A DNA stretch of 64,000 bases from Lactarius indigo. Lineage: Eukaryota; Basidiomycota; Agaricomycetes; Russulales; Russulaceae. Positions 37,214 through 64,000 of the stretch are shown here, in pieces. The first letter of the stretch is position 1. Each line of letters starts with the position of its first letter. Both the position numbers and the translations under genes were made by a program. The notes under the pieces are model-generated. The model had not been told where the DNA came from. It searched no databases and saw nothing but the letters and a program-made list of their open reading frames with translations. The stretch spans positions 62,001 to 126,000 of the forward strand of contig JAFKAC010000136.1 in NCBI GenBank assembly GCA_025766275.1, written 5' to 3'.

Positions 37214-37245
<32 letters not shown>

Positions 37246-40371: not shown

Positions 40372-42211
40372 ATGGATCACTGGCGACTCCTTTGGGACAG
40401 TAACGACGCGGTAGTCATCGGTGGAGGTACGTCTGTCTCCTCATCTTAGATTGAGGTTGAGGTGCTTAATGGCTGTTGGTTTTTAGGTCCTGATGGTTAC
40501 GTGGCTGCGATCGAGGCAGCCCAGCTCGGTCTCTAAGCTCGTTTGTGCTTGCGTCGGCCACTTCTCCCCGTCGCTTGTCTTATTCTCTTCTAGACCACAT
40601 GTATCGAAAAGCGCGGGAGCGCTAGACGGGACATACTTGAATGTCGGCTGCATCCAGGTGGTGCTCAATAACTCGTCTATCACTAAACACTCTATGATGT
40701 TAAGAAACGCGGTATCGATGGTGAGTCCTAAACTTCTCATTCCTTTTTTTTCGCTAATGTCAAAACATATTAAACTAGTAGAAGTGTCAACTGACCTTCC
40801 GCAGATGCCTCAAGGGCGACATAAGACTCCGTGAACACGGAAGGCATCGAAATCCTCTTCAAGCAAAACAAAGCCGACTATATCAAGCGAACCGCCTCTT
40901 TCGTCTCCCCCAATGCCATCTCCGTACAGCTCATCGACGCGAGTCTACTATAGAAGCGAAGAACATCATCATTGTAACAAGGTCCGAAGTTGCTCCCTTC
41001 CTTGGTAGCGCACTGAGATAGACGAACAACAGATCATCAGCTCGACTGATGCGCTTTTGTTGCAGAAGGTCCGAGAAGAGGGTTATGATTGGCAGCAGGA
41101 TCATTGGACTGGAGATAGGGAGCATATGGAGTCGACTAGGCGCTGGAAGCGACCATTATCGAATTATAGTATCGGTGGTCCGGGGATCGACGAGGAGATC
41201 TCGTGCGTTCTGCTTCTTAACTTGTGTGCTACTCTCTTTTTGACGTATCACGGCGTGCTTAGGAAGCAGTTCCAGGAATCGATGATGAAGCAAGGCCCGG
41301 GGTCCAAGTTTTAAAATCGAGCACTAAGGTGCTTCTCTGCAGAGAAAATGGACGGGAAAAAGTGGTCGTCACGGCGGAGAGGTGCTAAGGACGGAAAGCA
41401 GGAACTCAGTGCGTTACCTATTTTACTTTATCTGGGAGAGAATTCGCATGGTCATGACAGCTCGAAGCAGATGTTATACTCGTTGCCGTCGGCTGCCGAC
41501 CATACATACAAGGCCTCGGGCGTCGAAAATGTCGACTTGAAGTTGACTCGCGCAGGCGCATCATGATCGGCGACCATCAACACGAGCGTGCCGAACATCA
41601 AGTACATTGCGATGTTATATCCGGGCCAATACCCGCCGCACAAGGCGGAAGAGGGGGGCATCACGGCGGTCGAGTACTACATCCACACCGGCCATGGTCA
41701 CGTGAACTACGGGACGATCCCGAGCGGGTGTACACGCACTCCGAGATTGCGTGGGGTCAAGGAGACGGAGCAGGGACTCAAGACGGACTGCTGGAGTACA
41801 AGTCGGCCGGTTCCCATTCCTTGCTAACTCGCGGGCCGAGACGAACTTGGATACCGAAGGCCAGGTGAAGTTCCTTGTGGAGATGGAGACGGACAGGGAC
41901 AGGATCCTCGACGCACACATCATCGGTGCGTGTCGTGTTTTCCCATATTTGGGGCAGAGTTGCTGAGTTTCGTGGGTTCCTTGTGTGTTGATAGGTCCTA
42001 ATGCTGGCGAGATGATCACAGAGGGCGCGCTTGCGCTCGAATGTGATGCAAGCGCCCGAGAGCATCGCAAGCACGACAAACGCACACGTATGTCCCTCCT
42101 TTCTCTTTTTCGCCCCATCCTGCCTACAATACGTTCCCTTAGCCAACAATGTCCGAGGCGTTCCGCGAGGCAGCCCTGCAAGTGTCTTCTGGCAGTGCGA
42201 TCCACTTCTAG
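40372..42211 (+). pseudogene. Dihydrolipoamide dehydrogenase (DLD), pseudogene copy A
   Basis: DLD is the E3 flavoprotein of mitochondrial 2-oxoacid dehydrogenase complexes. The copy has NDAVVIGGG (FAD site), an intron, GYVAAIEAAQLGL, then YLNVGC. It continues through ADYIKRTASFVSPNAISVQ, EISCV and a recognisable central domain, [24 protein letters not shown] and GPNAGEMI. It ends MSEAFREAALQVSSGSAIHF with a stop at 42209-42211. The first redox Cys of the family CLNVGC motif is Tyr. There are many stops and frame changes (for example after AAQLGL, and between 40900 and 41100). No mitochondrial transit peptide is visible. It lies tail to tail with the NLR and is repeated at 48885-50605, where it is similarly dead. 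Confidence 0.9.
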
Positions 42212-43306
42212 AGTGAGAGCAATGGTCAGTCTGTGTGAGAGGACTGCCGGGGTGCATCGCGTGCATACATATAAATCACATTTCCTCCGTCGGGTATTTC
42301 ACTACCCTGTATCTGGGGCACCTACGACACGAGGGCCATCTACACACAGCCTGAGCCAATACTAATCCCCACTTTACCTTTTTTGCCTGTGGTACGTTAA
42401 CTTGCGGTCATGTGATTTACTGGCCAGTTCAAGGGCCGGTTTATCTTGGTTCAGTGCCATTGTTACAGTGTCGCTTTCCGAGTTGTCTCCCATAGAATCT
42501 TATATTTCACCCTCGCCATCTCTGGACCCTTCTCGTCTGAGTGAATGACAAAACTGACGTTTACTGCGTTTTCCTGGTGCTTATTTAGATGCCAAATGTT
42601 GTGTCAAAAACGTGAGAGAACGTTTGAAAAAGCCTATGCTTCTACTGTACAAGTCATTTTCATGCGCCGAGGATACTCCCAGGATCATCGAGACATCCAC
42701 GATAAGGTGGACAGGTGTCTTGAGTGTCTTTCATTTGTTGGAATTTGGTGAGTTCACGCGCGAGTTGTCTCGGCGTGGGATACTGCCCGCAATCGGTGTC
42801 CGGCATCACCTGCAACCTCATGTGCGGGTGTTCGCATGTGTGATCGTGTCCGTCCATAGTGACTGTGATAAGGGACAATCCCTCAATCTTCTACTTAGTT
42901 GAGACGTTGTTCGTGTTCGTTTCTAACGGAGGGGCGGATGCCCGTCTTCATTATTTCACATGTATGTAGACACATTATGCTACAGTCCTTACGATGTGTT
43001 TAAGAACGCTTCATGCGCTCCTGACACCCCAGTCGTTAACTGGGTGTGCCGGCCCGCTGCATTTCATCATCATCTCCTAGACTACTACATGTCACACACC
43101 GTAGCAACACATAATCCGGCTTCGTGGATCCGCGGACTCCATAGCCTGTTTCGAAGAGATAAGGCTCTGTTCATGGATCAACTGGTATTGATTCATCGCA
43201 TTCTCGATTCGAGCACCATCACCACATAATACAACTAGCGTACTACGATAAAACGGTCGGATAAGAAAGATGGTGTCACCGAAAAATATAGCCTTGCAGA
43301 TACCCA
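42212..43306. other. DLD/NLR convergent intergenic region, copy A
   Basis: No gene. AGGATCATCGAGACATCCACG (42672) corresponds to 50613 in cassette B, where it follows DLD directly, so copy A holds about 450 bp that B lacks (or B lost it). 43093-43260 matches 50675-50860 and the right edge of the window. Confidence 0.6.
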
Positions 43307-46300
43307 TCACTCGTTCTATCGCTCCGATAGTAGTTCGACGATCTCTGTGTATTCATTTTCTTTGGCCTCGTCCAACGGAGTCATTCCATCGGTTGCCGCG
43401 TGCGTTCACGTTCCACCGTGCTTCAATAATAATTGCACGACTTTCAGATGTCCATTGAAGGCTGCATTGTGCAACGGAACCCGGTCAAGGTCATCGCGCG
43501 CATTGACTTCGGCATTGTGTTCAAGAAGTATCTCGGCAACCTCGAGTACAACCATTGACTGCTGCAAGGTGCTAGTGCGTGGTCGAATGATTGCCCAAGC
43601 TGGGCTTCCAGGTCTACGCCACGGTCGAGTAGCCACCGCACGACATCAGGCAAACCGGTTTCCGATGCACGATGTAGAGGGGTTTCGTCGTAGTCATCCC
43701 GGATATTCAGATCGGTGCCATGCTCCAGTAGCAACCATACAATCTCAACGTCCATTTTGGTGAATGCTGCCTGCCAGGGAGTCCCGTAGGAACCGCCCTT
43801 GGTATTCACGTGCTGCGGATGCTTTGAAAGCACGTGTTCGACCAGAGCCCGGTTTCCAATCCGTACGGCGTAATATAAGGGGGGTGCCTTTGGTTGTGCC
43901 GGGCTTTTCCCCGACATCGAGGGCCCATCAATGTTGTGGAGCCAGATCCATGCAGCGAAATGCGGCTTGTCTGCGTCGAGCAGTTCGTCGATAGCATCCT
44001 TCGCGTGCGACAAAACATTCTCGGACGTCACGTGGTCGGACCAGTGCTCTGCTGCGTATTTGGCCAGGGGAAATCCCGTGATGCTGTCGCGGTCAACTCG
44101 CTCATCGAGCCGGAGGAGGACACCTAGAGACGCTTGCGCTAGAATCGTGTGCGCAGACTCGAGTCGAATATGGAATCGCGACTCCTCTCCGACACAACTT
44201 GCAAGCCGATTTGATGTCAGGAACTCTTTCACAGAGAAGTGCGAGAACTGAACCACCCGGGAATCACCATCCATGACGACGGTCACCAAACTGGAGCATG
44301 CTGATAGCACCGCCTCTTCGTTGTCTTCCCACCGCCAATCTGCATTCAACTTCGGGCCGCCGCGCGCGTTGAAGTCGATGGCCAGGACTTCGGCAAGTTC
44401 TTCGACTCGAAGTGGACGAACGGCCACAGTCAGGCATTGCAGTAGACGATATGCATGATCTATGTTCGCTCGGCTGATTTCCCTTAGTATCCGCTCGTAT
44501 GTCTCGTCCAGGGATTTGGGTAATTCGTCCAGGATGTTGAGGACGCTCGATGGGAAACAGTGGCGTAGTATCTCCAATTGACAGAATACCCATCGGAACC
44601 TGCGCCGAATCAATCTTCAGCGAGCACAACAACGGAGTAGCGATGGGCTTACATTCCATCAGCCTTGGTTGAAAGTCTTTCGACGACCAGGTCCCTTTCC
44701 TCCGCTCTCCATCGACGCATCCTGGAGTCCGAGTGAACAACCGAGTTGACATAGTTCGCGATATCCGCGCTCTGTCCGCTTTCATCATGAAGTGATATCC
44801 GGTGGGCTGCCAGTGGCTCGAGGGCATTACGGATGTCGATCTCGGGTCGACTCGTGATACACATATGCAAGTTCGAAAGTTTCAACCCGACGAGATCCTT
44901 GACAAGTCGCAGGACCTTTTCGCGAGGTGATGGCACCCCTGATGTGTTGACACATTCGTCGACCGCGTCCAAGATGAGGTAGATTGGTGTTTGTCCGAGG
45001 GCCACGAGCATGGTCTTGAGGCACTGCGCAAGTGCGTCCTCATTTGGCTGGACTGATCCCTGACGATGAGCGGAGTACAAGTCATGAAGAATGTCGCAGT
45101 AAACATCGGACTGATGAGAGAGCTGGATGAGAAGAGAGCAGAGCAGAGCACGGGAATCCTGCTTTGCGGTGTCCTTGAAGTCAAAATAGAAGTAGGCCAT
45201 CGACGCGAACCCGGCATTGCAGACGTCTTCTATATCTCGGATGATCACGGAGCTGGACGAAATCAAAAACTTGAGCGCAAATATAGACGCAATTCGTCAG
45301 GGAGAAACGAACTAAGAATACTTTTTCCCGAGCCCGCTAAGGGACAACAGGAAGGTGTTAGTATGAATTCGGTCGGAGAGCAATGGACGTACGTTTTCCA
45401 TGAACCCACAACAGGCAGCCATCAGCCCTCCAACGGTTTGAAGGCGTCACCTCGAGTGAGCCATGCTGCGGTACCCTCGTGATGGGCACCGCAAGCAGTG
45501 TTGTAATTGATGGACGGATCGGGGGGAGAGATCCAGTTTCGGAGTTCACGTCGAAGCTGGTTACCTGTGAAGTACGTGAGCAGCCGCGGCTAATGTCAGT
45601 ATGTAAATCACTGACGGTTCATATCGTCTACGGTATTCATGATCCGTTGCATTGCTGCGGTTCTTTCCTTCCCTCCTAGGAAAGCCGAAGTATGAGGATG
45701 GTGCGTAGATCATATACGCACGGAAAAAACACACCGTCAACGATTAGCTTCACGACACCTTGGACCCTTCCGTCGACACCTGGACCCTTTCGTCGATACC
45801 TTGGACCCTTTCGTCAACACCTTGGACCCTCTCGTCAACACCTTGGACCCTCTCGTCGACGCCATGGGCCACTCGTCGACGCCCTGTACTCTTTCGTCAA
45901 CACCCCGGACCCTTTCGTCGACACCCTCCACCTTCCCGTTGACGTCTTGCACCCCCTTTCCGACGCACTTCACCTCGTAATCCACACTATGCGTCAGCCT
46001 CACGAGTTCCGCAGTCGCCATTCGGGCTTCTTCTTGCGTCAATTTGTCGAGTCTCTCCAACGCGTCCTCAATATCTCGTCTTCCAACAAGCTTTTGAAGA
46101 ATTTCTCTGAATGACGTCTAATGAAAAGAAATCGCTGTATAAATTGGAGAATAACATACTCGCTCCCTTGTCTGATCTCCTTGGTAGCTATTGCGAAAAT
46201 GGACAACACCTCGACCATAATATTCACCACAATGTCCGTCATAGCTGTCGTGTGGAACTTCTGTGTAGGCCTCAAGCCGTTTGAAGAAGTTCTCGATGCG

Positions 46301-46795
46301 TTCGAAGATGTCGATGAGAACACCGTGGCTGGCAGCAACATCCTTGGATGCCTAAATGATCGAGCTGTCACAATTGTCCACAGAGTGAAGTCGACGAAAT
46401 ACTCACCAAGAGCAAAACTCCAATTCCGGCAAAAATCACCTTGGCAGGAGAGAACACCTAGAAAATGAGAGTGAGCGCGCAAATTGGGACAAGGCAGCCC
46501 CAGATAGTCACCAAACCAACGCCCTCACGAGCGTAGCAGAGAACGCGTAAAGCACGTTCACGGTCGGATTAAGCCACTTTGTCAACCTCTCATCATCCCG
46601 CCGAACTGATCGAACTCCTCGACCTGGGCTAAGCACGATGAGAATTGCATCGGGAGAGTTGCAAGTCTTGAGCTGGGTGGCTAAGGGGTGAGAGGTGATG
46701 TCTTGTCCTGTTCGCTTTTTGTAGGCTTTAACGGCAGTTTGGAAGATAGAGTCGAAGTTGGAGGAAGAGGTGGTTGGGAGAGGGGACTGAGACAT
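43307..46795 (-). pseudogene. NLR A: Goodbye / coiled coil / NACHT / ankyrin, frame-shifted
   Basis: The gene starts MSQSPLPTTSSSNFDSIFQ at 46795, the same N-terminus as NLRs B and C. NACHT is well kept: a P-loop reading G-K-P-G-S-G-K-S across an intron (about 45340), IYLILDAVDEC and LHMCITSRPE. The helical region with RPLRVEELAEVLAIDF and the ankyrins (DETPLHRASETGLPDVVRWLL) sit in the frame 43444-44613. Breaks against NLR B are: one base lost near the end of exon 1 (an upstream GTGAGG donor could rescue it), two bases lost after KRLEAYTEVP (about 46245), one in the heptad coil, one near 43575 and one near 43412. The coil has about 12 heptads. Fungal NLRs sense non-self or allelic partners; its ligand is unknown. 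Confidence 0.88.
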
Positions 46796-47419
46796 GGTGT
46801 AGCCGTATGTCGATTTGGGCTGAGAGGAGAGGAGAGACGACCGGATGACCTGTGACTGTAATTAAATGGAGAGAGCTGAGGCAGGACGCGGACGAGGCAC
46901 AGCCTCGTGTACTGCAAAAGATTCGGGTGATCTGGATAAGGATGATAGACGCGCTACCGACGTGATAACAATAAATACGGCAACTTGATGGCATCGTGGT
47001 GGATGCGGTGTGGATAGGGAAATAGTTCGAGTTGAAAGAAGTAAGGACTGTCGTCGATGGCAATGACTCGGGGCTCATACTAGCGTCGGATACCTGGCAT
47101 ATGTACAACATGACAAGGCCCAAATAATATGGGGACTAACCAAAGGGCTGGTCTATAATTAATTTTTCCTGTGTGCGATATGTAGCACTACAACACGGTT
47201 ACACCGGCGTCCAATGTCCGGAACAATCTCAATACGAGACACCTTAGGGATCGGTTGTGGCTCAAGTTAACGGGGCTTTCACCCCCATATTTCTTGCGCT
47301 ATCACCTTGAGCAATGCGTTTGTTGAGTTTGGAGTATGTAAGTATATAAGCTCTTCCTCAATTGTGAAGGACGGTAGTATGTTCAAAAGTCGGTCCAAGT
47401 CGGGCGTCCCAAGACTCGA
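46796..47419. other. NLR A upstream region / sedolisin A downstream region
   Basis: No gene. Blocks are shared with 54584-55559 and with 56610-57059: GATAAGGATGATAGACGCGC, a GGTTAC-containing block and GCAATGCGTTTGTTG. It should contain the NLR promoter. Confidence 0.6.
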
Positions 47420-48770
47420 AACCTATCGAGCCCAGAGAAAGCCAACGTCTAAAATGTCGAGGGGCGAGTAGCCATCAAGCAGCGAGATTGTACGAGCACG
47501 TTCCGCGTCTTTGTAATCAGCCGGTGCCGAGGATAGACGACCCGGATAAGGAGGAGAGACGCATGGGAGCCGCTTGTGCTGGACATAACTACCTCGACGC
47601 CATGAGGAAGTTACAGAATCTGATACCTTGCGATGATGTCGGAAATGCCGCGACCCGTAGCACTGCACGAAACACGGAGCACGGATATGTCAGCTGAGTT
47701 AGAGACCTTGATATTGGTTGCCGAAATTACAGACGAAGAGAGGCGCGGCTTGCAGTTGGTAGCTCGCGCGCTGGAAGACGGTAGTGCGAAAGCTGCCGCC
47801 GGAAAGTCTCGGCGCGATCTCAGGCTCGTAGCTCGTGGTCCCGTCGACGGAAGCGACCCAGGGACCCGTGAACGGGTGATGGTGTGGGCGACCTGTGCAC
47901 GAGCTTCTTCCAGGACTCTTCCGAGCCATACACAATGCACACGTACAGGTTGTGGAGAACATAGGCATATACTGGACGGAGCCGTCGTCGTCGGTCATAT
48001 GGTCACTTTTGCCGGCGCCGAAATCACCGTTGGCGAGAACTGACCTCGCATGTGCCGAGCTGCGCGAACACATACTGTACCTTTTGTATTCTCTCGGGGA
48101 GGCTCGGTCATATGATGTCGGCAGAAAGTCCAGGTGGCTAAGGGTGTATCGGAGGCGAGTAACCAGTCGTCCGTGCCCGGCGACCGGCGGCCAGTGTTGC
48201 CGAAGATGCGCGGGGTCTGATGCTTACACCGAAATTGAGCCTGGAGTCGAGATGGGTCGAATTTTATCCCCGTCGTCAACTTATACGACAGTGAAGGTGG
48301 CGTCGACGCTGTCGATGCGGTGTTTGGTTTGAACATGAACGCGGCCAAATCTCTTGGGCACGGGTACTGCCTGGAAATCTCGGCCCTGAATCCCCAAGCA
48401 TGTTCTGGTCCGTCGCAGAAAGTGCGTGGGTAAATTTGTTGTACAGCCAGCGCACGAACGACTGTGGCTCGGCATAGTCACGGCTCTCCTAATCCAGCCT
48501 CGCTGCAGCATATTGGGGTGCATTCACGGCGTCTCCCACTACATGGGCGGGGAAGCAATGTGTTTTTCTGGCGCCACAATTAGCACATGGATGTGCTGCA
48601 CCGTGGGAAGCGCATAGCAACAGGGCAGACAATGAGAGCCTCGTTTGAGTGCCAGTAGAGCTGATATGACGCATTGAGAGCATTTTCTGGGTCAAGGACA
48701 CGCCATTGAGTGTCAGTGTGTTACTACCACGGGCAAATGAGACGGAAGAGGAATGAAGCTAGTGAGGGTT
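47420..48770 (-). pseudogene. Sedolisin-type (S53) serine peptidase, pseudogene A
   Basis: The reading is minus, in several frames. Family landmarks in order: the propeptide end YALPTVQHIHVLIVAPEKHI (about 48590), DATFTVV, DWLLAS, SVLANGDFGAGKSD (the GD-G motif), then YEPEIAPRLSGGSFR and NQYQGL. GRGISDI follows, then a decayed GTS-S region (STSGS) and ISLLDGYSPL. In the family these are acid peptidases secreted after propeptide removal. The end is shortened: GYSPL runs directly into VGFLW, whereas copy B keeps about 150 bp between them. Many frame changes make it a pseudogene. It is upstream of NLR A on the same strand. Confidence 0.8.
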
Positions 48771-48884: not shown

Positions 48885-50605
48885 ATGACGCACTCACTCA
48901 TCTTAGACTGAAGGCGAGGCGCATAACGTTGGTTTGTAGGTCCCGTGGCTGCGATCAAGGCAGCCCAGCTTGGTCTCAAAGTCTGTTCGTGGCGTCGACC
49001 GCTTATCCCGTTGCTCATCTCGTTCTTCACTAGACCGCACGCATATAGACCGCACGCATATAAAAGCGTGGAATGCTAGGTGGGACGCACTTGAACGTCG
49101 GCTGTATTCTTTCCAAGGCGATGCTTAACAACTCGCAAATCTGCCACCAAACACTCCATGATATCAAGAAACGTGGCATCGACGGTGCATCGTTAACTTC
49201 TTCCAATGCCATTTTTCACTGACTTTTTAAAAAAAAAAAAAAACCGGTCGAAGACGTCAAACTGAATCCTCCGAAGGTGCTCAAAGCGAAGGAAGACTCC
49301 GTCGATAGCTTCACAAAGAGTATCGAAATCCTCTTCAAGGTGAACAAAGTCGACTACATCATCAAAGTAACTGCCTCTTCCCAATACCATCTCCGTGCAG
49401 ATCGGCGGCGGCGGCGAGTCTACCATGGAAGCGAAGAGCATTATGATTGCGATAGGGTCCGTGATTGCACCCTTCCCCGATGGCGCCATCGAGATAGACA
49501 GCCAACAGATCGTCAGCTCGACTGGTGCGCTTTCACTGCAGAAGGTCAATGAAAGGGTGGTAATCATTGACGGCAGCACCGTTAGACTGGAGATGGGCAG
49601 AGTATGGAGTCGACCAAGATCATTGGCAGCGTAGGCACTGACGAGGAGATCTCGTGCGTTCCCTCGATTTCGCTTGTGGTGTCGCTGTCCTCTAACATAT
49701 CACGGTGTGCTAAGGAAGCAGTTCCAGAACGCTATGACGAAGCAAGGTCTCAAGTTCAAATTGAGTACCAAAGCACTCTCCTCAGAGAAGAAGGATAGGA
49801 AGGTGGTCGTCACGACAGAGGCTGGTAAGGACGGCATGCATGACTCGGTGCGTCACTCTCAATTTACTTGATCTGTGAGAAAATTTACATAGTATGAGGC
49901 AGCTAGAAACAGACGTTGTACTCGTTGCCGTTGGCCGCCGACCATATATCCAAGACCTCGGCCTCGAAAATGTCGGTGTCGAAGTCGACTCGCGCGGGCG
50001 CATCGCGACCGACGACCAGTTCAACACAAGCGTTCCGAAAATCAAGCACATCGGCGACGTAACCTTTGGACCGATGCTCGCGCACAAGGCTGAGGAAGAG
50101 GGCATCGCGGCGGTGGAGTACATCCATCGCGGCCATGGTCACGTGAACTACGGGACGATCCCTAGCGTGGTGTACATGTACATGCACCCCGAGGTTGCGT
50201 GGTCGAGAAGACGGGCAGCGTGAAGTAGTACAAGGTTGGCCGATTCCAGTTCCTTGCTAACTTGCGGGCCAAGACGAACTTGGATACCGAAGGCCGGGTC
50301 AAGCTCCTCATAAAGGTGGAGACAGACCGGATCCTCGGGTGCACACCATCTGTGGGTGTGCTATTTTCCGCACTTAGGACTGAGTTGCCGAATTTCATGC
50401 CCCCTTGTGCGTTGATAGGTCCAAATGCTGGCGCGATGATCGCAGAGGGCATGCTTGCGCTCGAATACGGTGCGAACACAGAGGGCATCGCACGCACGAC
50501 ACACACGTATGTCCCTCCTTTCCCATTTCTTCGACGCCCCGTCCTGACCACGACTTTCCCTTCTCTCAGCCAATGCTGTCCGAGGCGTTTCGCAAAGCCG
50601 CCACA
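48885..50605 (+). pseudogene. Dihydrolipoamide dehydrogenase (DLD), pseudogene copy B
   Basis: The same gene as 40372-42211, but lacking the first exon with the FAD-site GGG. It has [41 protein letters not shown] and MIAIGSVIAPFPDGAIEIDSQ. The central parts [44 protein letters not shown] and [13 protein letters not shown] are clear, as is the end [10 protein letters not shown] (about 50590). The first redox Cys is His here and Tyr in copy A. A run of about 15 A at 49228 and several frame changes break it. It is better preserved in the middle than copy A. Confidence 0.9.
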
Positions 50606-50892
50606 GGAAGGATCGTCGAGACATCCACGGTAGGGTAGACAGGGGTCTTTGGTGTTTTTTATTCCTTGCGCTATACACCGTAGCAACCCATTAACCGGTT
50701 TCATGCATCCGCAGATTCCATAGCACGTTTCAAGGAGGTAACGCTCTGTTGCTGGATCAATGGTATTTGATTCATCACATTCTCCAACTTAAGCACCATA
50801 AGTGTATGATACAACTAACGTACTACAATAAATCATTCGTGTAAGACATGATAAAAAGCCGTCACCCAAACGAATAGCCTCGTAGATACCCA
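50606..50892. other. DLD/NLR convergent intergenic region, copy B
   Basis: A short version of 42212-43306. ACACCGTAGCAACCC at 50675 and GGTAACGCTCTGTT at 50736 match the copy A region and 63885-64000. Confidence 0.65.
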
Positions 50893-53800
50893 TCACTCGT
50901 TCGTTTGCTCGGATAGTAATTTGACGATCTCCGTGTATCCTCGCGATTTGGCCTCGTCCGACGGAGTCTTGCCGTCGTTACCGCGCGCGTTCACGTTCCC
51001 ACCGTGCTTCGATAGTAATCGCACGACTTCCAGATGTCCTTGCAAGGCTGCATCGTGCAACGGGACCCGGCCCCGCCTATCGCGCGCGTTGACCTCGGCA
51101 TTGTACTCAAGAAGTATCTCGACAACCTCGAGACTTCCATTGGACGCTGCAAAGTGCAGTGCAGTCGATCGATCTTCCGCCTGGGCTTCGAGGTCCACGC
51201 CACGGTCGAGTAGCCACCGCACAACATCAAGGAAACCGACGACCGATGCGCGATGCAGTGGAGTTTCGTCGCCGTAGCCCCGGATATCCAGATGGGCGCC
51301 ATTCTCCAGTAGCAACCATACAATCTCGACGTCCCCTTTGTGAAGTGCTGCGTGCAAGGGAGTCCCGTAGAAACCACCCTTGGCGTTGAGGTCCTGCGGG
51401 CGCTTCGAAAGCACGTGTTCTACCAGGGCCCGATCCCCAATCCGTACGGCGTAATATAAGGGGGACCCTTTTGGTTGTCCTGGGCTTTTCCCGGTCATCG
51501 AGGGCCCATCAACGTTGTGGAGCCAGACCCATGCAGCGAAATGTGGCTTGTCTGCGTCAAGCAGTTCGCCGATCCCATCCTTCGCGTGCGATAAAACATT
51601 CTCGAATTTGACGTGGTCGGGCCAGTGCATTGCTGCATATCGGGCCAGGGGAACTCCCCTGATGCTGTCGTGGTCAACTTGCTTATCAAGTCGGAGGAGG
51701 ACACCTAGAGACGCTTGCGCTAGAATCGTGTGCGCAGACTCAAGTCGAATATGGAATCGCGACTCCTCTCCGACACAACTTGCAAGCCGATTTGATGTAA
51801 GGAACTCTTTCACCGAGAAGTGCGAGAACTGAACCACCCGCGAACCACCATCCATGACGATGGTCACCAAACTGGAGCATGCTGATAGCACCGCTTCTTC
51901 GTTATCTTCCCACCGCCAATCCGCGTTCAACTTCGGGCCGCCACGCGCGTTGAAGTCGATGGCCAGAACTTCTGCAAGTTCTTCGACTCGAAGTGGACGA
52001 ACGGCCACGGTCAGGCATTGCAGTAGACGATAGGCGTGATCTCTGTTAGCCCGGCTGATCTCCCTTAGAATCCGTTCGTATGTCTCGTCCAGGGACTCGG
52101 GTAATTGCTCGAGGATGTTGAGGACGCTGGATGGGAAGCAGTGACGTAATATCTCCAATTGACAGAATACCCATCGGAACCTGCGCCGAATCTTTGTTCA
52201 GCGTGCACGACAACGGAGTAGTGACGGGCTTACATTCCATCAGCCTTGGTTGAGAGTCTTTCGACGACCAGGTCCCTTTCCTCCGCTCTCCATCGACGCA
52301 TCCTCGAGTCCGAGTAAACAACCGAGCTAACAAAGTTTGCGATATCCGCGTTCTGTCCGCTTTCATTGTGAAGTGAGATCCGGTGGGCTGCCAGTGGCTC
52401 GAGGGCATTATGGATGTCGATCTCGGGTCGACTGGTGATACACATATGCAAGTTCGAAAGTTTCAACTCGATGAGATCCTTGACAAGTCGCAGGACCTTT
52501 TCGCGAGGTGATGGCACCCCTGATGTGTTGAGGCATTCGTCAACGGCATCTAAGATGAGGTAGATTGGTGTTTGTCCGAGGGCCACGAGCATGGTCTTGA
52601 GGCATTGCGCGAGCGCGTTGTCATTTGGCTGTACTGATCCCCGACGGTGCGCAGAGTACAAGTCACGAAGAATGTCGCAGTAAGCGTCGGACTGATCGGA
52701 AAGCTGGATGAGAAGAGAGCAGAGCAGAGCGCGGGAGTCCTGCTTTGAGGTGTCCTTGAAGTCAAAATAGAAGTAGGCCATCGACGCGAACCCGGCATTG
52801 CAGATGTCTTCTATATCTCGGATGATCACGGAGCTGGACGAAATCACAGCTTGAGCGTGACTATAGACGCAATTCGTCATGAAGAAACGAACCTGAGAAT
52901 ACTTTTGCCTGAGCCCGCTAAGGGACAGGAAGGTGTTAGTATGAATTCGGTCGGAGATCAAGGGACGTACGTTTTCCATGAACCCACAACAGGCAGCCAT
53001 CAGCCCTCCAACGGTTGAAGGCGTCGCCTCGAGTGAGCCATGTTGCGGTACCCTCGTGGTGGGCACCGCAAGCGGTGTTGTAATTGATGGACGGATCGGG
53101 GGGGGATCCAGTTTCGGAGGTCACGTCGAAGCTGGTTGCCTGTTAAGTATGTGAGCGACGGCGGCTAAGAACAGCGGGCGCTGGGGAGATCACTGACGGC
53201 TCATATCGTCTACGGTGTTCACGATCTGTTGTATTGCTGCACTTCTTTGCTTCCCTTCTAAGCAAGCCAAAGTATGAGAACGTCGCGTAGAATAGATAAG
53301 CAGAATCACAAACCATCGAGGATTAGCTTGACATCGTCGTTGATGACTGCCACCCTATGATCGACTTGTTTCACTCCGTCATTGACTGCCTGCACATTTT
53401 GGTCAACGCGTTGGACCCCCTCCCCGACGCCCTGGACTCTCTCATCGACACCCTGGACTCTTCCATCGACGCCCTGGACTCTTTCGTTGACGCCCTGGAC
53501 TCTTTCATCGACACCCTGGATTCTTTCGTCGACGCCTTGGACCCTCTTGTCAACACCATGCACCCTCTCATCGATGCCATGTACCCTCCCGTCGACGCCC
53601 CGGACTCTTTCGTCGACGTCTTGGACTCGTTCACCGACGCCTTGAACTCTTTCGTCGACGCCCTGGACCCTTTCGTCGACACACTCCACCTTCCCGTCGA
53701 CGTCTTGCACCCCCTTCTTGACACCTCCACCTGGAAACCAACGCCCATCACCTTGTCGTCCATACTATGCGTCAACCTCAGGACTTCTGCGGTCGCCATC

Positions 53801-54583
53801 CGCGCCTCATCTTGTGTCAATCTGTCCAGTTTCTGCAGCGCGTCCTCGATATCTCGTCTTCCAACTAACTTTTTGAAGAATTTCTCTGAATAAAATCTAA
53901 GGAGATAGATCAGAGAATAACTGGAGAATAACGCACTCGCTCTCCCTTGTCTGATTTCCTTGGTCGCTATCGCGAAGATAGACAACACCTCCACCATGAT
54001 CTTTACTATAACATCCGTCATTGCTGCTGTCTGCGGAACTTCGGTGTAGGCCTCAAGTCGTTTGAAAAAGTTCTCTATGCGCTCGAAGATGTCGATGAGA
54101 ATGTCGTGGCTGGCAGAAACATCCTTGGATGCCTGAATGATCGGGCTGTCACAAGGGTCTGCAAGGTGTGCTAAACGGAGATACCCACCAAGAGCAAGAC
54201 TCCAATTCCAGCAAATATCACTTGGCGGGCGAGAACACCTGTAAAACGAAGGTGAGAGCACAAATCGCGGAACGAGGCATTCTCCCAATACTCACCAAAC
54301 CAACGCCCTCACCGAGTGTAGCGGAGAATGCGTAAAGCACGTTTACCGTCGGATTAAGCCACTTTGTCAACCTCTCGTCATCTCTCCGAGACTGCTCGAA
54401 CTCCTCAACCTGGGCTTTGAGCACGGCGAGAATTGCATCGGGAGTGTCGCAGGTCTTGAGCCAGGCGGCTAAGGGATGAGATGTGATGTCGTGCCCCGTT
54501 TGCTTTTTGTAGGCCTTGAAGGCAGTTTTGAAGATAGCGTCGAAGTTGGAGGAAGAGGTGGTTGGGAGTGGGGACTGAGACAT
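50893..54583 (-). CDS. NLR B: Goodbye / heptad coil / NACHT / six ankyrins, nearly intact
   Basis: STAND-type receptor, cytosolic by family. Exon 1 (ATG 54583) encodes a Goodbye-like domain (FDAIFKTAFKAYKKQTG, LNPTVNVLYAFSATL). Short exons follow: IDIFERIENFFKRLEAYTEVP, then KFFKKLVGRRDIEDALQKLDRL, a coil of about 18 heptads (VDERVQG type), and PPDPSINYNTACGAHHEGTATW. The NACHT P-loop G-K-P-G-S-G-K-S is split by an intron (52892-52975). Walker B is IYLILDAVDEC, followed by LHMCITSRPE. The last exon (50893-52160) has RPLRVEELAEVLAIDF and about six ankyrin repeats, ending LLSEQTNE and TGA. One problem: exon 2 near 54216 lacks a base that NLR A has (GCCAAGTGA against GCCAAGGTGA), putting a stop after the Goodbye domain. 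This is either a real truncation or an error. The rest is open. Confidence 0.87.
53325..53715 (-). repeat. 21-bp repeat encoding the NLR B heptad coil
   Basis: About 18 consecutive 21-bp units encode VDERVQG and close variants (VDGRVHG, IDERVHG, VDKRVQG, VNERVQG). The unit length equals one heptad, so unit gain or loss keeps the frame and coil register. NLR A has roughly 12 (45750-45990) and NLR C about 8 (61640-61810), less alike. Confidence 0.92.
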
Positions 54584-55559: not shown

Positions 55560-56545
55560 ATCTACGAAACCCAGAGCAAGCCAACATCGGGAGTAACGAG
55601 GCAATAGGTCTGATGCGTCCCGCAGGATCCTAGCAATGGAAGAGTATCCACCAGTGTTGCAGCCAGGGTTCGAACCAACTGTGATGTCATAGAGGGTCAC
55701 GAGGCCATTGCCGAACGGCCAGGAGTTGAGAAGCCGAGGGGCGAGTAGCCGTCAAGCAGTGGGATTGTGTGAGCCACGATCTGTACATTTGCAATTATCC
55801 GGGCGCTTGCAGATAGACGAGGTAGAGAGATGCATAGGAGTCGCTCGTGTTAGATGCGACTACCTCGACGACATGACGAAGTTTCAGAATCTGATAGCCT
55901 GCGCGGCGGTGTCGGGGACGCCGCAGCCCGTAGCGTTACACGGATCACAGAGCATAAATATGTCAGCTCAGGTCATGGAGGCGAGCATACTCGTAGGGGC
56001 CTTGATACCAGTTGCTAAGGTTCTAGATGAAGGGAGGCATGGCCTGCAGTTGGTACCTCGCGTGCTGAAAGCAAGACGAAAAGCTGTCGCCGAAAAGTCT
56101 CGCTGCGATCTCCGGCTCGTAGACCGTCGTCTCGCCAACATAGATAACCCCAGGACCTGCGAAAGGGTGGTGGGATGATGGTTTACCTGTACACGAGCTT
56201 CTAAGACTCTTCCGAGCTAATTAAAGATGCCACACGTACAAGTTGTGAAGAACACAGGGACAAACTGGACAGGCTGTCGTCTGTCACATGGTCCCCTTTT
56301 CCGACGCCGAAGTCAATGTTCGCGAGGACTGACCCTGCATGCGCCGAGCTGCGGAAACCATACATTACATATTCTCTCTTGGCGGCTTGGTCGTACGACG
56401 TGCTAATGAAGCCCGGGCGGTCGAGGATGTATCGAAGGTGAGAAAGCAGTCGTCCATGCCCGGCGACCCACGGCGAGTGCTGCAGAGGATGTGGGGATCG
56501 GGTAGCACGTATGCCGATTCCGTGTTGTAGTAGGGTGGTTCGAGT
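55560..56545 (-). pseudogene. Sedolisin-type (S53) peptidase, pseudogene B
   Basis: The propeptide and N-terminal part are missing; the rest follows copy A in several frames. Segments: VLANIDFGVGKGDHVTDD (about 56310), VTDTA-like GRG region (about 55910), IPLLDGYSPL, then LGFLNPW-type residues, and LYDITVGSNPGCNTGGYSS (about 55680), a strong S53 C-terminal signature near the calcium site. Stops and frame changes are frequent. Confidence 0.8.
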
Positions 56546-57059: not shown

Positions 57060-58075
57060 CTGTTTCAATGGCATATGTCTGGCGTTACCTCCATGAACAA
57101 GTCAATGTCGAGAGTGAAGAGACAATAAGTCCGGTGGGTCGTACAGGGGCGATGGCGAAGTATCCATTGGTGTTGTAGCCTGGGCTCGAGCCAACTGTGA
57201 CATCATTGAAGAACACGAGATGGGGGAGCAGCCTTCGAAAAGCAAGTAGTCATTGAATGGTGAGATTGTACTAACCAGGATCGGTACATTTGCGGTTAGC
57301 TGTGCTCGGAACCCAGATAGAAGGGAGGAGAGACGCATGAGTGCCGAGCCACTTGTGCCAAGCGCATCTACCCCGACGTGGTGTCAGACCGCAGACTCGC
57401 ATGCCAATTATAGTCATACCCTTAGCACCAATGTTGGAAATATATACGTGCCGCTGCACGAAATACGAAGTAAGTCAAAGTCAGATCAGGTTACGGAGGT
57501 GAACGCGGTTGGAGAGGCCCCTTAACAGCCTTGATACTGTTCCCGTGGTTCCCAGGGAGAGTGGACGCGACTGCCGCTGGTTCCCACGCGCCAAAAATAA
57601 AACCGAAAAACCGCCACCGGAAGGGCTCGTCGCGATCTCCGGTTTCTAGCCCGTCATCCTGCCTATGTCATGGACACGCGAAGCGTGGTACTGTGGTGGG
57701 CAATCCGTACCTGCACCTCCAAAAAGGGGGGGAATGCCTAACGGGACGCCCCTCTCGTGGTAGACGTACGACGTACTGACCATCGGCGGGGAGTTCAGAT
57801 GGTTGATGATGTGTGAGCCAGGCAAGGAACCAATCGCCCGTGCTGGACCGGTGCCGTAGAGGATAGGGAGTAGGACATGGCCTCGGTCTGCTGGATGCCA
57901 GGGCTTAGCTCATTAGCAGAAATCTGGTCGTATTCCGCATCGTTGAGTCGCATGACGAAAGTAACATCGGTCCCATCGGTGCGGTGTTCGAGCATGAACG
58001 TGGCCGAGACCGCCAAGGGGACCGCTGGCGTTGCATCACCCAAATCCTTAATAACTTTGGTCCATAGCAGTTAGT
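57060..58075 (-). pseudogene. Sedolisin-type (S53) peptidase, pseudogene C
   Basis: The reading is minus. It has a propeptide/catalytic boundary segment (TDVTFVMRLNDAEYDQIS, then PGIQQTEAMSYSL, about 57900), a catalytic-Ser region reading GTSGSA (about 57350) and ISPFNDYLLFEG (about 57245). The C-terminus is NDVTVGSSPGYNTNGYFAIAPVRPTGL (about 57150), close to the family NDIT-GSNPGC-T-GF-A-GWDPVTGLG pattern. The middle of the catalytic domain is largely lost. It belongs to the relic cassette described at 56610-57059. Confidence 0.75.
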
Positions 58076-58592
58076 TAGTAGGTGAACGTGTTCTATAACC
58101 AGTGCAGGAACGTCGGAGAAGTGTTAAGATCATTACGCGGCTCAGTTTTTGCGAGACTCAGAGTTCGGGAAGTCCCGGAACTATTAGGTCACGTGAGGTG
58201 CTACTGTTGAGAAGCCTGGGACCCCTAGAGACGTACCAGTATTGTCTTGAGTATTGTATGGCCCGAGTACAGTGACTTGCATCTGACCTGAATTGCCCAC
58301 GACTCCACATGCATAAAAATTTAGGAGAGGACTCGCGCCGTAGCGAGTAATAGGCTCCTACGAAGCGTAGATAGAAGTGATGAAGCAGAGAATAAGAAAC
58401 ATGGAAACGTAGATGGAGGCACCCGAACGCAGACGGAGACCGTTGATGCAAAAGGTAAAAGCATGGATGAGATATTCATTTTCGTACGCGTGCAAGGTAT
58501 ACTGTAATTGGGTATCATTCTGAGCCCAGCGAGGACGTAGTCCTCACGGCGCTCCAAAAGTTCGAATCATAGGCAGGTTGATAAGTACAGGA
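58076..58592. other. Intergenic, no gene
   Basis: Lies between sedolisin C and the 3' end of NLR C. No domain-bearing frame and no match to the A/B/right-edge NLR 3' flank, so NLR C differs in its downstream context. Confidence 0.4.
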
Positions 58593-61500
58593 TTACAGTA
58601 GGAACAACTTCTGCACATCTCGTGCTTGATCTCGTAAGGTTCGGGCCAATGGGAGATCTACGTACGAACCGCCGCTGGTTTCTTCTGACGGATCCCATCC
58701 GCACACATTTGCATAAGTGTTTGCATCTGCATCTGGGTTCAGCAATATTCGCACAGCGCCGAGCTCTCCTTCATACGAAGCTACGTGCGAAGGGGTAGAC
58801 CCGTTGTTGTTCCGAGCATCGGCCTCCGCGTTTCTCTCGAGTAGCACCTTAATAACCTCGCAGCGCCCGTAGAATGCCGCAATGTGCAGTGGAGTGTTTC
58901 CGGTGTTGTCGCGCGCGTGTACATCCGCATCGTGGTCCAGCAACAACCGCACAACTCCAGCTCCCCTCAGATGCTAAGTGTAACGGGGTAGTTCCGTCGT
59001 CGTTCCGGGCATTGACCTCGACAGTGCGCTCTAGGAGTACCTGGCAATCGGGGTGCCCGTTGACCGTGGCGGAGTGCAGTAGAGTATTTCCAATGTCGTT
59101 GCGCACGTGCGTATCTCCCCCACTGTCCAACAAAAATAGCACAACATCGAGCGTCCCTCATCCGATGCGCCGTAACGGGGTAGATCCCACGTCATCCCGG
59201 GCATCAACCTCCAGACCGCGCTCAAGTAGTATTCGAGAAAACTCGAGGAGCCCATTGGCGGCTGCGAGATGAAGTAGAGTCCTTCCTCTGTTGTCACGCA
59301 CATGCACGTCCGCGTCGCGGTCCAGAGTAACTGTGCGGTATCAAGCTCTCCTTCCTCCAATGCTCGGTGTAACGGGGTATATCCCTCGTCGTCCAAAGGA
59401 TTAAGCTCCGCACCGCGCTCGAGCAGAACCCGAGCAACCTCGAGGTGCCCGCCGGACGCCGCTAAATGCAGCGGAGTCTGTCCGTCCTTTCCTTTTGGGT
59501 CCAAGTCCGCACCGTGGTCTAGCAGCCAGTTACCGGCGTCGAGAAGCCCGCGTTCTGAGGCGATGTGCAGTGGAGTCCAGGAGTCCGCGGACAGGGAATT
59601 GACATCGGCACCATGCGTGAGCAACATCTGGGAAATTCCGATGTTTCCCCAGCGCACTGACGAATGCAATGGAGTACCGCAAAGACCTCCCAAAGCGTTC
59701 ACGTGATGTGGATGTTTTACTATCGTGCGTTCAACCAGACCACAGAATCCATGACGCGCGGCGAAGCATAAGGGAGCTGCCGGAAGAGGCGCTGTGGTCA
59801 GCTTTGGAGAGTCGTTAGGAAATAGATCGCGTAGGTTTTGCATTCCGATCCATGCTGAAAAATGCGGCTTGTCCATGTCGCAAAAACTATCCATTGCGCC
59901 CTTTACGCGTGTTTCCACCCCCTCGAACTGCGCGTGCTTGACCCAGAATTCAGCAGCGTATTGGACAAGAGGGATGCGCTTGATTTTGTCTTCGTCCTTG
60001 TGGTTGTCCAGGCGGAGCAAGACGCCGAGACAAGCCCGGACAAAAATTACGTGTGCGGGCTCGAGGGAAATATGGAACGGGAGTGCCACTCCAGTAGAAT
60101 TTGCAATGCGCTCCGATATCAAGAATTCCTTTACGGAGAAATGGGAGAAATGAACGACCCGGTAGCCATCGTCGATGTTGACGGACACCAAGCTGGAACA
60201 CGCTGACAGCACCGCCACCTCCTGGTCCTCCCAGCGCCAACCCGTGTTCAATTTCGGGACTTCTCCTTCTCCGTCGTCGAAGTCAAACGCAAGCACTTCC
60301 GCAAGCTCCTCGACCCGAAGTGGCCGAACAGCGACCGCGAGAAATTGCAACAGTCGATATGCGTACTGTCGATTGGCCTTGGTGATCCCCTTCAGGATGC
60401 GCTCATATGTCTCGTCCAGAGATTCGGGCAATTCTTCGATGATACGACGCACATTGGTCGGGAAACAGTGCCTTAGAACCTCTAATTGACAAAAAACCCA
60501 TCGAAACCTGTGTGAGAACATGAGACCACGAAGGGACTCACTGATCGAAGTTGTACTTACATTCCATCGGCTTTCTCCGTGAGTTTCTCGATAACCATAA
60601 CCTTCTCCTCATCTTTCCATCTCTTCATCCTTTTGTCTGAGCGAACGACAGAAGTGATGTAGTAGATAATGTCCTGCTTTTGTCCACTTTCGTCTTGAAG
60701 GGATAGTTGTTGAGTTGCCAGAGGCTCAAGCACAGTGCAGATGTCGAACTCAGGACGGCTCGTGACGCATAGACGCAAATTTGGATGGCGAAGCTCGACG
60801 AATTCTTCCACGAGGTCTAGCACCTTCTCACGCGACGACGGAACACCGATGTTGTCGGGACACTCGTCGAGAGCGTCAATGACGAGATAAATGGGTGCTT
60901 GCCCCGCGATCGCAAACATATTCTTGAGACATCGCGCGAGTGATGCGTTACTTGGTTGTTCCGATCCATCTTTATGCGCCGAGTATAGTTCAAGAAGAAC
61001 GTCACGTAAGTCATCGGATTGATCGGAGAGCTGGACAAGGAGGGACGATAATAAAGCACGGGAGTCCTGTTTCGCTGTGTCCTTGAAATCGAAATAGAAA
61101 TAAGCCACGTAAGCCAAGCCAGCTTTGGACATAGTCTTGATTTCCCGGATAATGACGGAGCTTGGGGATGATGTAAGTTCAATAGGGACGCAACTTGTCA
61201 AGGAGTAACACACCTTAAAACGCTCTTCCCAGAGCCAGCTGTAGAACCAAGAGGTAATTAGTAGCGGTAATTAAGATCCAGATGGTAATTTGATAAGTAC
61301 GTTTTCCGTGGATCCACAACAAAGAACCGGACGCTTTCCAATCAGCGAAGGTGTTGCCTCGGGCACACCATGTTGCAGTACCCTCGTGGTGGGCATCGCA
61401 CGCGACGTTGTAATTGACAGATGGGTCGGGGCAGAAATCCATTGTCGCAGGTCTTGGCGTAACGTATTCCCTGTACGAATGCCTAAGCTGTCGTATTCTG

Positions 61501-62609
61501 CAGGCAAAGAGATCACGAACGGTTTAAATTGCTGACTTCGTTAGCAACCTTTTGAACCGCCACCTTTATTTCTTTTCCACCTAGCCAAGTAAAAGTGTCA
61601 GGATACGACGGGCAAGCTATGCAGACATGCCTCACCTTCAATGACTGCGCTGACTTTGTGATTGACGCGTTGTACTTCGTCGTCGACGCACTGCAGTTTG
61701 TCGTCGACATCCTCTAAGTTTGTACTAATAGCCTGTACCCTCCCATCGACGCGCTCCACCTTGTCATCCATGGCCTTCACCTTGTCGTCAATTCCGCGAC
61801 TGATCTTCAGTGCTTCTGCTGCCGCCATACGAGCCTCCTCCCGCGTCAATCCGTCGAGCCGATGTAGCGAGTCCTCGATGTTTGTCCATCCGACTAGCGT
61901 CTTGAGGTACTTTTCTGGAAGACATTGACTTTCGTAGGACTATGAACAGGAAAGGACATACTCATTCGCCCCTGCTTGACTTCCTTCGTTATGATCCCAA
62001 GGATTGAAAGAACTTCGACCATGATCTTCACGATGATGTCCGTCATGGCTGCCGTCGGTTGTACCTCTATATAAACCTCGAGTCGCTTAAAAAAGTATTC
62101 GATGCGTCCAAAGAGGTCGACGAGTGCTTCTTGGCTAGCACGTACGTCCTTTATGGCCTCAGAGATGTGTGTGTTACCAAGGACCGCATGTCGGAGCCAA
62201 GGAAAACGCTTACTTTGAGCAGGATACCAATCCCAGCAAAAATCGCATCTGAAGGTGGGAATACCTGTAGGGACATAAGTCAGAGGGTAGATCTCGAGTG
62301 GATTAACCTGTCGCGATTTACCAGCCCAACTACGTTGCCCAGGGTCGCAGAGAATGCGTGCAAGACTTTGACAGTTGGTACCAGCCACGTTGTTAACTTT
62401 TCGTCTGCATTTTGGGATTGGTCGAACTCTTGAACTTGGGCTCGAAGCACGTCGAGAATGGCACTCGGAGCACCACATGATTTCAGTTGGACGATCAAGG
62501 GATGCGAGGCGATGTCTTTTTTTGTCTGTTTTTTGTACGCCTCCAATGCATCTCCGAAAATTGTCTCAAAGCTTGTGGGGGTGGTGGTCGGAGCCGGAAC
62601 TTGGGACAT
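58593..62609 (-). pseudogene. NLR C: diverged Goodbye / coil / NACHT / ankyrin paralogue
   Basis: The start MSQVPAPTTTPTSFETIFG (ATG 62609) lines up with NLRs A and B, so I prefer it over an upstream in-frame Met. The same exon pattern follows: SATLGNVVGLV, IFAGIGILLK, LVDLFGRIEYFFKRLEVYIEVQ, then LDGLTREEARMAAAEAL. A short coil (MDDKVER, VDGRVQA; about 8 heptads) leads to NACHT with P-loop G-K-P-G-S-G-K-S over an intron (about 61230), IYLVIDALDEC and LRLCVTSRPE. The ankyrin part is longer than in A/B (roughly ten repeats, for example GQTPLHLAASGGHLEVARVLL). It changes frame near 59335, 59155 and 58950, each by one base. Those shifts, like the one in NLR B, may be real or sequencing errors. 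Confidence 0.87.
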
Positions 62610-63884
62610 GTAGTCGTTGAAGTGACTGTTGGTTCGGTGAGTGAATAGTAGAGGAAATCGCAATTGGGGGACAATTCATTATATGTGCCCTAATATATTT
62701 TTAGCCTATGACGACCAGGACGTCCTGTGAACAACAGATAGCCGCCGAAATATTCCAGAGAGCCAAGAAAGGAGCCAGTGACCTTTCCAGCAACCGTAAT
62801 ATACGCGCCAAAAATTGCAGTGAAATCCGACTCGAAGTGCGACAAACCGCAGGAAAGACGTGCTCAGATTCATTTATTTACTCTAGGAGAGGTGCAAGTA
62901 CGAGGATTGAACGAAAGCTAAGATGACCCTCACAAACTGCCTCACGCAGAGCAGCGGGATGAGATCTGCGAGTTACCCCATTTGGAAGCGAGTCGACTGT
63001 CAATATGTCAACGCGCGTACACAAGGGCGCAGACAAGGGCCTTAACAAGAACACGCCTTGTTCCAAATACAACAACCAATCCTTATTATCAGTGAGGATA
63101 AAATTATGTTTGTGCACACGAATTGTCCACGTTATACTGGGTAGCCATGTTTACCTGCTCGGGGTCCCGTATTCACGACAAAGACGTGCGGTACCAGGAA
63201 CTGCCAGGTGGCATCCGGGATTGGCAGCTAGGTGGTGTACGGCACAACATAGCTATATGGTCAAAGAGATATAGGAAAGGCTGGTCGAGGAGGCACAAAA
63301 AGAAAAGGGTCCCCGCCAGTCATCCAAGTCTTGTACAAATTCATCGCTTGAAGAATAGCTTCTGCGGGTTATAGCAATTAGAATGTAACTCAACGCCTTC
63401 TGGAATATGACAGAACTCGATTAAGAGATCAGAATGTTGAGATTGGGCAGCGGTGTATCATGGGTAAGTTGAGGCGATGTGGGCGATGTCTGAGTGGCGC
63501 CCGAAATAAGGTAGAAGAAGAAGGAACACCAAGCCATGCGCCGTGTGACGCATGTAGTCGAGGCCCTGAAGGGACTAAAGGGTAAGTAAGTCGAGATGCA
63601 CTTAGGGGCGCTGAACCCGTAGCAGGTTGGACAAACCACTGACAAACCTCTACGTCCCGGTCCGCGGAGTTCCGGGTTCAAAATCGTGGGAACGGAGGCT
63701 CACATCCAGCGATTGTTCTGATCTTGGTAACTTAATCGCAAGGCAAAAACGCGGTATGGCGATATATCGGCCCCAATCCAGGAGTGTTTTCAGGAGTCTT
63801 GAGTGCTAACTGGTGATGCCACATCGCGTCTCAAGACTGCTACGCCGGACGCTTGGCCATTGAGCGCAATTCCATCCCTTGAGC
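62610..63884. other. No gene supported
   Basis: Upstream of NLR C. Frames of 60-90 codons on both strands show no family features. No sedolisin landmarks are visible, unlike the regions upstream of NLRs A and B. GGGTTCAAAATCGTGGG near 63675 looks slightly like a tRNA B box but no cloverleaf forms. Confidence 0.45.
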
Positions 63885-64000
63885 AATATATCATATGCCG
63901 TAGAAACTCATAATCCGGCCTTCGTGTACATTCCACAGTTACACAGTCAATGTATTTCGGGGAAGTAACGCTCAGTTTGTGGACAATGGTATTAAATTCG
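63885..64000. repeat. Copy of the NLR 3'-flank sequence at the window edge
   Basis: The sequence from GCCGTAGAAACTCATAATCC through GAAGTAACGCTC and GGACAATGGTATT follows, in order and spacing, 43097-43204 and 50678-50776. In cassettes A and B this block lies about 100-120 bp before the NLR stop codon. The window ends before any coding sequence. Confidence 0.75.

Follow-up and report, generated by a model that had tools for sequence, protein, structure and literature searches.

A probable recombining array of Goodbye-NACHT-ankyrin receptor genes with decaying dehydrogenase and sedolisin passengers in Lactarius indigo

In a 64,000-bp stretch of the genome of the ectomycorrhizal fungus Lactarius indigo, referred to here as the window, NOD-like receptor (NLR) genes lie next to the remains of dihydrolipoyl dehydrogenase (DLD) and sedolisin genes, and this arrangement occurs more than once, raising the question of how it arose and which of its members selection retains. 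The window covers positions 62001-126000 of a contig of 129,672 bp, C42, in an assembly of 291 contigs and 90.3 Mb. Most likely, the locus is a tandem array of NLRs of the STAND (signal transduction ATPases with numerous domains) class, whose units recombine with one another and in which coding sequence is preserved in the NLR alone, the DLD and sedolisin passengers being left to decay.

The repeated unit and its coding state

Two head-to-tail units, A and B, each comprise a DLD on the plus strand followed by an NLR and a sedolisin on the minus strand, as an initial annotation based on the window alone had described. Comparison of the window with itself returned the corresponding blocks at E < 1e-100, with identities of 71% for the DLDs (40440-42175 vs 48897-50602), 85% and 78% for the NLRs (43096-45958 vs 50675-53548 and 45749-47413 vs 53504-55200), and 71% for the sedolisins (47458-48208 vs 55735-56491). 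Beyond these units lies a more distant NLR, C, which is 64-67% identical to A and B over three long blocks at 58.5-62.6 kb, where a third NLR had been noticed at 58.6-62.6 kb. A fourth NLR, D, follows on the minus strand in the 3,672 bp of C42 DNA 3' of the window edge. Its presence had been predicted from an NLR 3'-flank block near that edge, which is indeed shared with A and B and begins at ~63.9 kb, and its stop codon, expected roughly 100 bp past the window, lies about 118 bp beyond it. The order A-B-C-D is found again on contigs C179 (767,822 bp) and C58, thus the duplication is not confined to C42. On C179, an extra DLD-NLR unit, Z, which is 95% like B, stands to the left of A, and on C58 the DLD of unit B is partly inverted.

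By their predicted domains, these genes form a Goodbye-NACHT-ankyrin NLR array of an already known kind. NPHP3_N scores 78-90 bits in A, B, and C against a cut-off of 24.8 (9e-22 in A and 1e-21 in B), indicating a NACHT-type nucleoside triphosphatase, and Ank_2 exceeds its cut-off in all three (9e-13 in A and 5e-45 in B), providing the C-terminal superstructure repeats. The winged-helix domain (WHD) is matched by GPIID_WHD at 1e-6 in both A and B, and the N-terminal effector domain by Goodbye in B (8e-7; 29.9 bits vs a cut-off of 24.8) and, at 26.8 bits, in the NLR A copies of C58, C106, C179, and C265. GSGKS, the core of the Walker A motif, is present in one frame of all 15 NLR copies examined, thus a loss of Walker A in NLR B suggested by hand reading was rejected; in NLR C the motif (GKPGSGKS) spans an intron. 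A nine-exon spliced model, derived from the C179 copy of NLR C and moved to the other copies by alignment, is open in A, B, C, D, and Z of C179 (1017, 1083, 1224, 954, and 1086 residues, respectively) and in A, B, C, and D of C58 (1017, 1048, 1224, and 954 residues), and the protein P0129 matches the NLR A of C179 at 100% identity along 810 residues.

The passengers present a different picture. The unit B DLD is recognized by PDB 1jeh (E 1.1e-17) and by Pfam Pyr_redox_dim (7.5e-12); the best DLD open reading frame (ORF) of unit A reaches only a Pfam E of 0.031, short of the cut-off, but its DNA aligns at 78% identity over 1.9 kb with the C113 locus, where DLD is functional. Over 387 compared codons, stops and broken codons are absent from four DLD loci (C113, C185, and two on C250) and present in all six DLD relics outside C42; both relics on C42 have them as well, none of which has the open frame of a functional DLD; genome-wide, 14 of the 26 DLD hits of a Pfam search contain stops. 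Sedolisin (S53) was traced by tblastn as pieces at 47756-47866 (3e-9), 47939-48325, and 48384-48458 in unit A, and at 55635-55733 (6e-6) and 56050-56157 (7e-8) in unit B, and the unit B block matches DNA at most 1.3 kb from S53 prodomain hits at six places (C157, C281, C108, C248 twice, and C35). A PDB sequence search with the unit A sedolisin ORF returned no sedolisin, only antibody chains at E 0.02-0.6, and Pfam found no S53 family in the sedolisin-region ORFs tried. These pieces are fragmentary on C42, C179, and C58, several of them with stops, and they yield no functional S53 frame. To judge from these frames, the DLD and sedolisin genes of C179 and C58 are likewise dead, as the initial annotation had proposed for the passengers of the window; its companion claim, that the NLRs keep their frames, fails on C42, where A, B, C, and D are all broken, and holds on C179 and C58.

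Sedolisins are strongly induced in Lactarius-pine roots according to the available part of PMC8417538, thus a sedolisin passenger is no odd gene for the genus. On C113 (191099-200900), an open DLD and S53 ORFs, on both strands, lie a few kb apart within 10 kb. Between them is an ORF that we take to resemble a ubiquitin hydrolase, and array DNA matched nothing NLR-like in this interval. The C113 sedolisin has little kinship with the array relics, which it matches at best over 39-124 bp at 68-82%; C113 is thus no more than a candidate for the ancestral source locus, and the DLD/S53 pair there is only suggestive of a link to the array.

The dead DLD passenger, with functional copies elsewhere in the genome, provides an internal standard against which selection on the receptor can be gauged. 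The ratio of nonsynonymous to synonymous divergence (dN/dS) is ~0.2 for NLR pairs and 0.35-0.56 for DLD relic pairs, in agreement with the earlier expectation that the NLR is the selected part; functional DLD pairs give 0.04-0.05 in five of six cases, the sixth having no synonymous change. Thus, the NLR core appears to be under purifying selection. The ankyrin part, at 0.35-0.84, evolves faster, with changes concentrated at ligand-facing positions, a set that was chosen after the data had been inspected and whose position counts were summed by hand. This set presumably corresponds to the positions varied in designed-ankyrin libraries. Its spacing agrees with ankyrin positions 46, 48, 56, 57, 78, 79, 81, and 89 in the accessible part of PMC3602593.

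The repeated unit would then be an NLR gene plus flanking DNA that formerly held DLD and sedolisin genes. Recombination between units would add or remove copies and homogenize parts of them, the passengers decaying while the NLR alone retains its coding sequence. Unequal crossing over would fit as the mechanism; synonymous divergence is uneven along A-B and A-Z, which points to gene conversion too. By analogy with the family, as far as the available text of PMC12881547 and PMC9815663 describes it, the ankyrin array may bind a non-self or modified-self ligand, upon which NACHT would oligomerize in an ATP-dependent manner, a heptad stalk would bundle and hold the Goodbye domains together, and the latter, as a bundle related to the four-helix bundle of MLKL/HeLo, could trigger a defence or cell-death output.

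Several observations weigh against parts of this account. Only A and B are complete tandem cassettes; C and D stand within it without DLD, no DLD piece being found by tblastn beside either on C42 or C179 (sedolisin pieces do lie 5' of D on C179), and the NACHT of C is only 59% identical to that of A, which places C in a distant clade. The Pfam NACHT model itself scores 20-23 bits in A, B, and C, below its cut-off of 26.7, and in NLR C both Goodbye (18.6 bits vs 24.8) and the WHD (23.3 bits vs 27) fall short. Moreover, relic versus functional DLD comparisons give dN/dS of 0.16-0.28 and all relic ratios are below 1, thus the relics were under some constraint for part of their history. In the B-Z pair the ankyrin excess falls short of significance (p 0.075) and the WHD ratio is high (0.70), and the same-slot pairs A and C, compared between C179 and C58, show no such excess (p = 1).

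A heptad stalk between Goodbye and NACHT

In NLR A and B, exon 4 contains a 21-bp minisatellite, reported by Tandem Repeats Finder, that codes for GVDERVQ-like heptads. Among open copies, this exon measures 375 bp in A, 573 bp in B and Z, 468 bp in B of C58, 279 bp in C, and 216 bp in D, the B exon of C58 thus falling 105 bp, or 5 heptads, below that of C179. Stalk length was measured from one fixed anchor to the other in the best 120 of 683 protein matches to NLR C, which are predicted and related proteins and, where the organism is named, belong to Lactarius or Russula; both anchors were present in 104, and 16 with incomplete anchors were dropped. Lengths range from 26 to 166 residues, and 76 of the 104 fall in class 5 mod 7. 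The same class holds 21 of the 42 distinct lengths, filling every rung (26, 33 ... 166), with p = 3.1e-7 after correction for seven classes, not for 13 moduli or relatedness; moduli 2-6 and 8-13 are not significant, and 14 reaches 1.8e-3. Once redundancy is reduced at 70% identity in the non-stalk sequence, 20 of 27 remain on the ladder. No period emerges at the moduli tried in three further segments of these proteins, two of them having only ten distinct lengths. Of the array NLRs, only A, at 121 residues, is off the ladder, in the second commonest class (15/104); the stalks on it measure 187 residues in B and Z, 152 in the C58 copy of B, 89 in C, and 68 in D.

A further 66 proteins, found with the stalk itself, are biased to heptads, thus the main figures rest on the first set; with them added, 105 of 154 measured proteins (of 186) are on the ladder. 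In 90 on-ladder proteins, and in a register chosen to favour this result, the two core positions are V, I, L, or M in 85% and 90%, flanked by D/E and K/R. Searching with nothing but the stalk returned 100 proteins, which come from Lactarius or Russula wherever the organism is named; among the unnamed, a few resemble unrelated coiled coils. Counting against a coil, AlphaFold2 shows the stalk as a helix only at a predicted local distance difference test (pLDDT) score of ~50 or less, in a model of P0025 made with 40 sequences (mean pLDDT 61.7); at such low confidence the model supports nothing about the stalk. The linker between Goodbye and NACHT nevertheless reads as a heptad coil that tends to change length in 7-residue steps, and this appears to be a new point: in the accessible text of the literature on fungal Goodbye/NACHT NLRs no mention of a heptad stalk was found, and a literature search on Lactarius/Russula NLRs and on heptads in fungal NLRs gave nothing useful.

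The chances are about even that this ladder is mere 21-bp slippage and that stalk length has no role. The DNA of A and B does have a 21-bp period, from which slippage alone would yield steps of seven; NLR C is also on the ladder, yet Tandem Repeats Finder reported no array for it in the scan of the window, and NLR D is on it as well, though it lies outside the window and was not in that scan. The hydrophobic core, kept across the 90 proteins in the favoured register, also speaks against slippage alone. Neutral length change within a constrained coil may be compatible with both the C/D ladder and the core hydrophobicity. Far more speculative, and rather improbable, is the proposal that the stalk is a length-coded assembly module, in which 21-bp gains and losses would set the length in each NLR copy or allele and only stalks matching in length and charge pattern would bundle. 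If true, the array would encode many receptor complexes without cross-assembly. A stalk that tends to change in exact heptads in Lactarius and Russula is directly testable.

Distribution of the unit and other explanations

A genome search with the NACHT exon of NLR A, in which the best 150 of 729 candidates were scored, delimited a same-clade set of 41 NACHT exons at least 78% identical (the next at 65%), which includes the same copy on redundant contigs. All are without stops except two (39/41), namely copy A on C106 and C265. The sedolisin block lies 2.4-3.5 kb 5' of at least 23 of the 41, and a Pfam-level DLD match 2.3-4.4 kb 3' of at least 11, which carry both passengers. The underlying table used 23 of 26 DLD rows and 29 of 45 sedolisin rows, omitting second fragments and short weak matches; an omitted row on C112, 2.4 kb 5' of a clade member, would raise the sedolisin count to 24/41, and the inversion of the B-slot DLD on C58 bears on the DLD count. 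Pfam Goodbye matches occur at no fewer than 138 places in the genome (best 150 of 967 candidates scored). NLR runs of another clade were observed on C12 and C257, with ten same-strand matches spaced 8-18 kb apart on C12 (40 scored).

Spread of the copies by transposition or ectopic insertion, instead of unequal crossing over, is unlikely, yet it survives better than the other accounts of the array. The left edge of unit A (40.3 kb) is a breakpoint between contigs, with DNA to its left that is repetitive at 35.6-36.6 kb; the slot of unit Z on C179 is taken by other DNA on C42, C58, C106, and C265; and clade members occur on C17, C220, C112, C247, and C270. Such insertion would not readily explain the uniform strand of the members on C179 (8/8) and C233 (11/11), nor their spacing, since, NLR C included, 13 of 18 neighbour gaps measure 4.9-12.7 kb and the other five 26-104 kb.

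That the array NLRs are themselves decaying pseudogenes, like DLD and sedolisin, is very improbable. The nine-exon model stops at residues 101, 102, 355, and 102 in A, B, C, and D of C42, and at residue 102 in NLR A of C106 and C265, but these breaks accompany almost no substitutions (0-3) relative to the nearest copy, the frames are open on C179 and C58, and the low dN/dS of the NLRs speaks for constraint. A reading of the window alone, in which all its NLRs are dying, was set aside after comparison with C179 and C58. C42, C106, and C265 share the same end base and show no differences among them from 48 kb on. Compared with C179, C42 has only gaps in B (3) and in D (15), without a single mismatch, and 2 mismatches with 13 gaps in C; its NLR A differs from that of C58 by 3 mismatches and 19 gaps, and from that of C179 by 84 mismatches and 22 gaps. 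Thus, C42 resembles a C58-type A joined to C179-type B-D, with many small indels; it looks like a noisy, redundant contig that is probably phase-switched, and the join could also be a real recombinant. The public model P0137 (H4582DRAFT_2152318; 43307-48477), which reads sedolisin-relic residues first and then NLR A, is a chimeric gene model. It illustrates that where this assembly breaks a frame, or a gene model rests on such a break, the cause can be a consensus error.

Equally doubtful is that NLR and sedolisin form a functional pair, like fungal gasdermin and its protease, of which the relics would be broken examples. According to the available text of PMC10197012, fungi are known in which a cell-death gene has a protease gene as its neighbour, and the recurrence of the sedolisin block 5' of so many same-clade NACHT exons would suit such a pair, but the sedolisin pieces found on C42, C179, and C58 are fragmentary, several with stops, while the NLRs stay open. 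Least probable of all is an assembly artefact behind the A/B duplication, to which the shared contig end, the lack of differences from 48 kb on, and the small indels of C42 would lend themselves, since A and B differ by 15-29%, far above consensus error, and stand side by side, in the order A-B-C-D, on C179 and on C58, the latter hundreds of substitutions apart from the others.

Surroundings of the array and comparison with known systems

The features of the array are listed below, including a sedolisin relic that had been proposed at 56.6-58.1 kb together with a promoter and whose sedolisin part is only weakly matched.

Table 1. Coordinates in the window of the array features on C42
Feature	Position	Strand	Basis and remarks
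DLD relic, unit A	40379..42212	+	Similarity to functional DLD locus on C113; stops/broken codons in C179 and C58 copies
NLR A	43307..46795	-	Goodbye-heptad coil-NACHT-WHD-ankyrin; Pfam, spliced model and mapping
21-bp minisatellite, NLR A exon 4, heptad-coding	45753..45943	-	Tandem Repeats Finder; exon 4 = 45735-46106
Sedolisin (S53) relic, unit A	47458..48477	-	tblastn pieces; block recurs in unit B
DLD relic, unit B	48897..50602	+	Pfam Pyr_redox_dim, PDB 1jeh
NLR B	50893..54583	-	Pfam Goodbye, NPHP3_N, Ank_2, GPIID_WHD; spliced model
21-bp minisatellite, NLR B exon 4	53425..53680	-	Tandem Repeats Finder; ~12 units
Sedolisin relic, unit B	55635..56511	-	tblastn; block near 23/41 same-clade NACHT exons
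Weak third sedolisin relic	57595..58001	-	tblastn, E 0.006 and 0.003
NLR C	58515..62609	-	Pfam, spliced model; at least 11 ankyrin repeats; exact C-terminus uncertain
NLR D 3' flank	63885..64000	-	Stop 64117-64119 and start 67421, both outside the window

Immediately left of the array edge lie a T-rich microsatellite of ~400 bp (37143-37541) and a GC-rich 32/64-bp minisatellite (39062-39298). Further left, a long terminal repeat (LTR) retrotransposon (26270-34165), with 576-bp flanking repeats that are 99% identical and matches to RNase H, integrase zinc-binding, and chromodomain families, is a young insertion close to the array. The interval 20954-24066 contains large repeats of ~600-1400 bp, both inverted and direct, including a palindrome at 20954-21709, and a second retroelement (10916-14703) has ORFs for Gag, reverse transcriptase, and integrase; a probe taken from it (12000-13000) gave 40 matches among 40 scored genome-wide (best 40 of 1305 candidates).

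Within the genus, the NLRs of L. vividus (P0033), L. deliciosus (P0025), and L. pseudohatsudake (P0028) are 78-83% identical to NLR A and share its Pfam architecture. The fungal Goodbye-like/NACHT/ankyrin NLRs described in the available part of Dyrka et al. 2014 (PMC4986451) are alike in domain order, in variation on the ligand face of the ankyrins, and in belonging to a large family. They differ from those of L. indigo, where the ankyrin repeats are not highly conserved internally: a motif search of five copies found 3 to 11 repeats per copy, the best pair being 43-60% identical, and none of the five attains the repeat identity of >85% over 100 residues that defines high internal conservation. 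Here, moreover, a 21-bp heptad stalk is present and dead DLD and sedolisin genes are carried along. PMC9815663 relates Goodbye-like domains to the MLKL/HeLo four-helix bundle and shares with L. indigo an N-terminal Goodbye in basidiomycete NLRs; the heptad ladder was not found in its accessible text, where words beginning with 'coiled' number zero.

With the NLR clusters of Sordariales (Bonometti et al. 2025, PMC12258605), in the text available, the array has in common NLRs less than 40 kb apart. Those clusters, defined by consecutive NLRs <40 kb apart with fewer than eight non-NLR genes between them, range in size from two to five NLRs, and paralogous copies form 16 of the 272. On C179, six same-clade NLRs and NLR C lie inside 67 kb (656-723 kb) at a spacing that stays below 40 kb, the distance part of that definition only, thus the tandem NLR runs of L. 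indigo are longer than those reported in that text for Sordariales.

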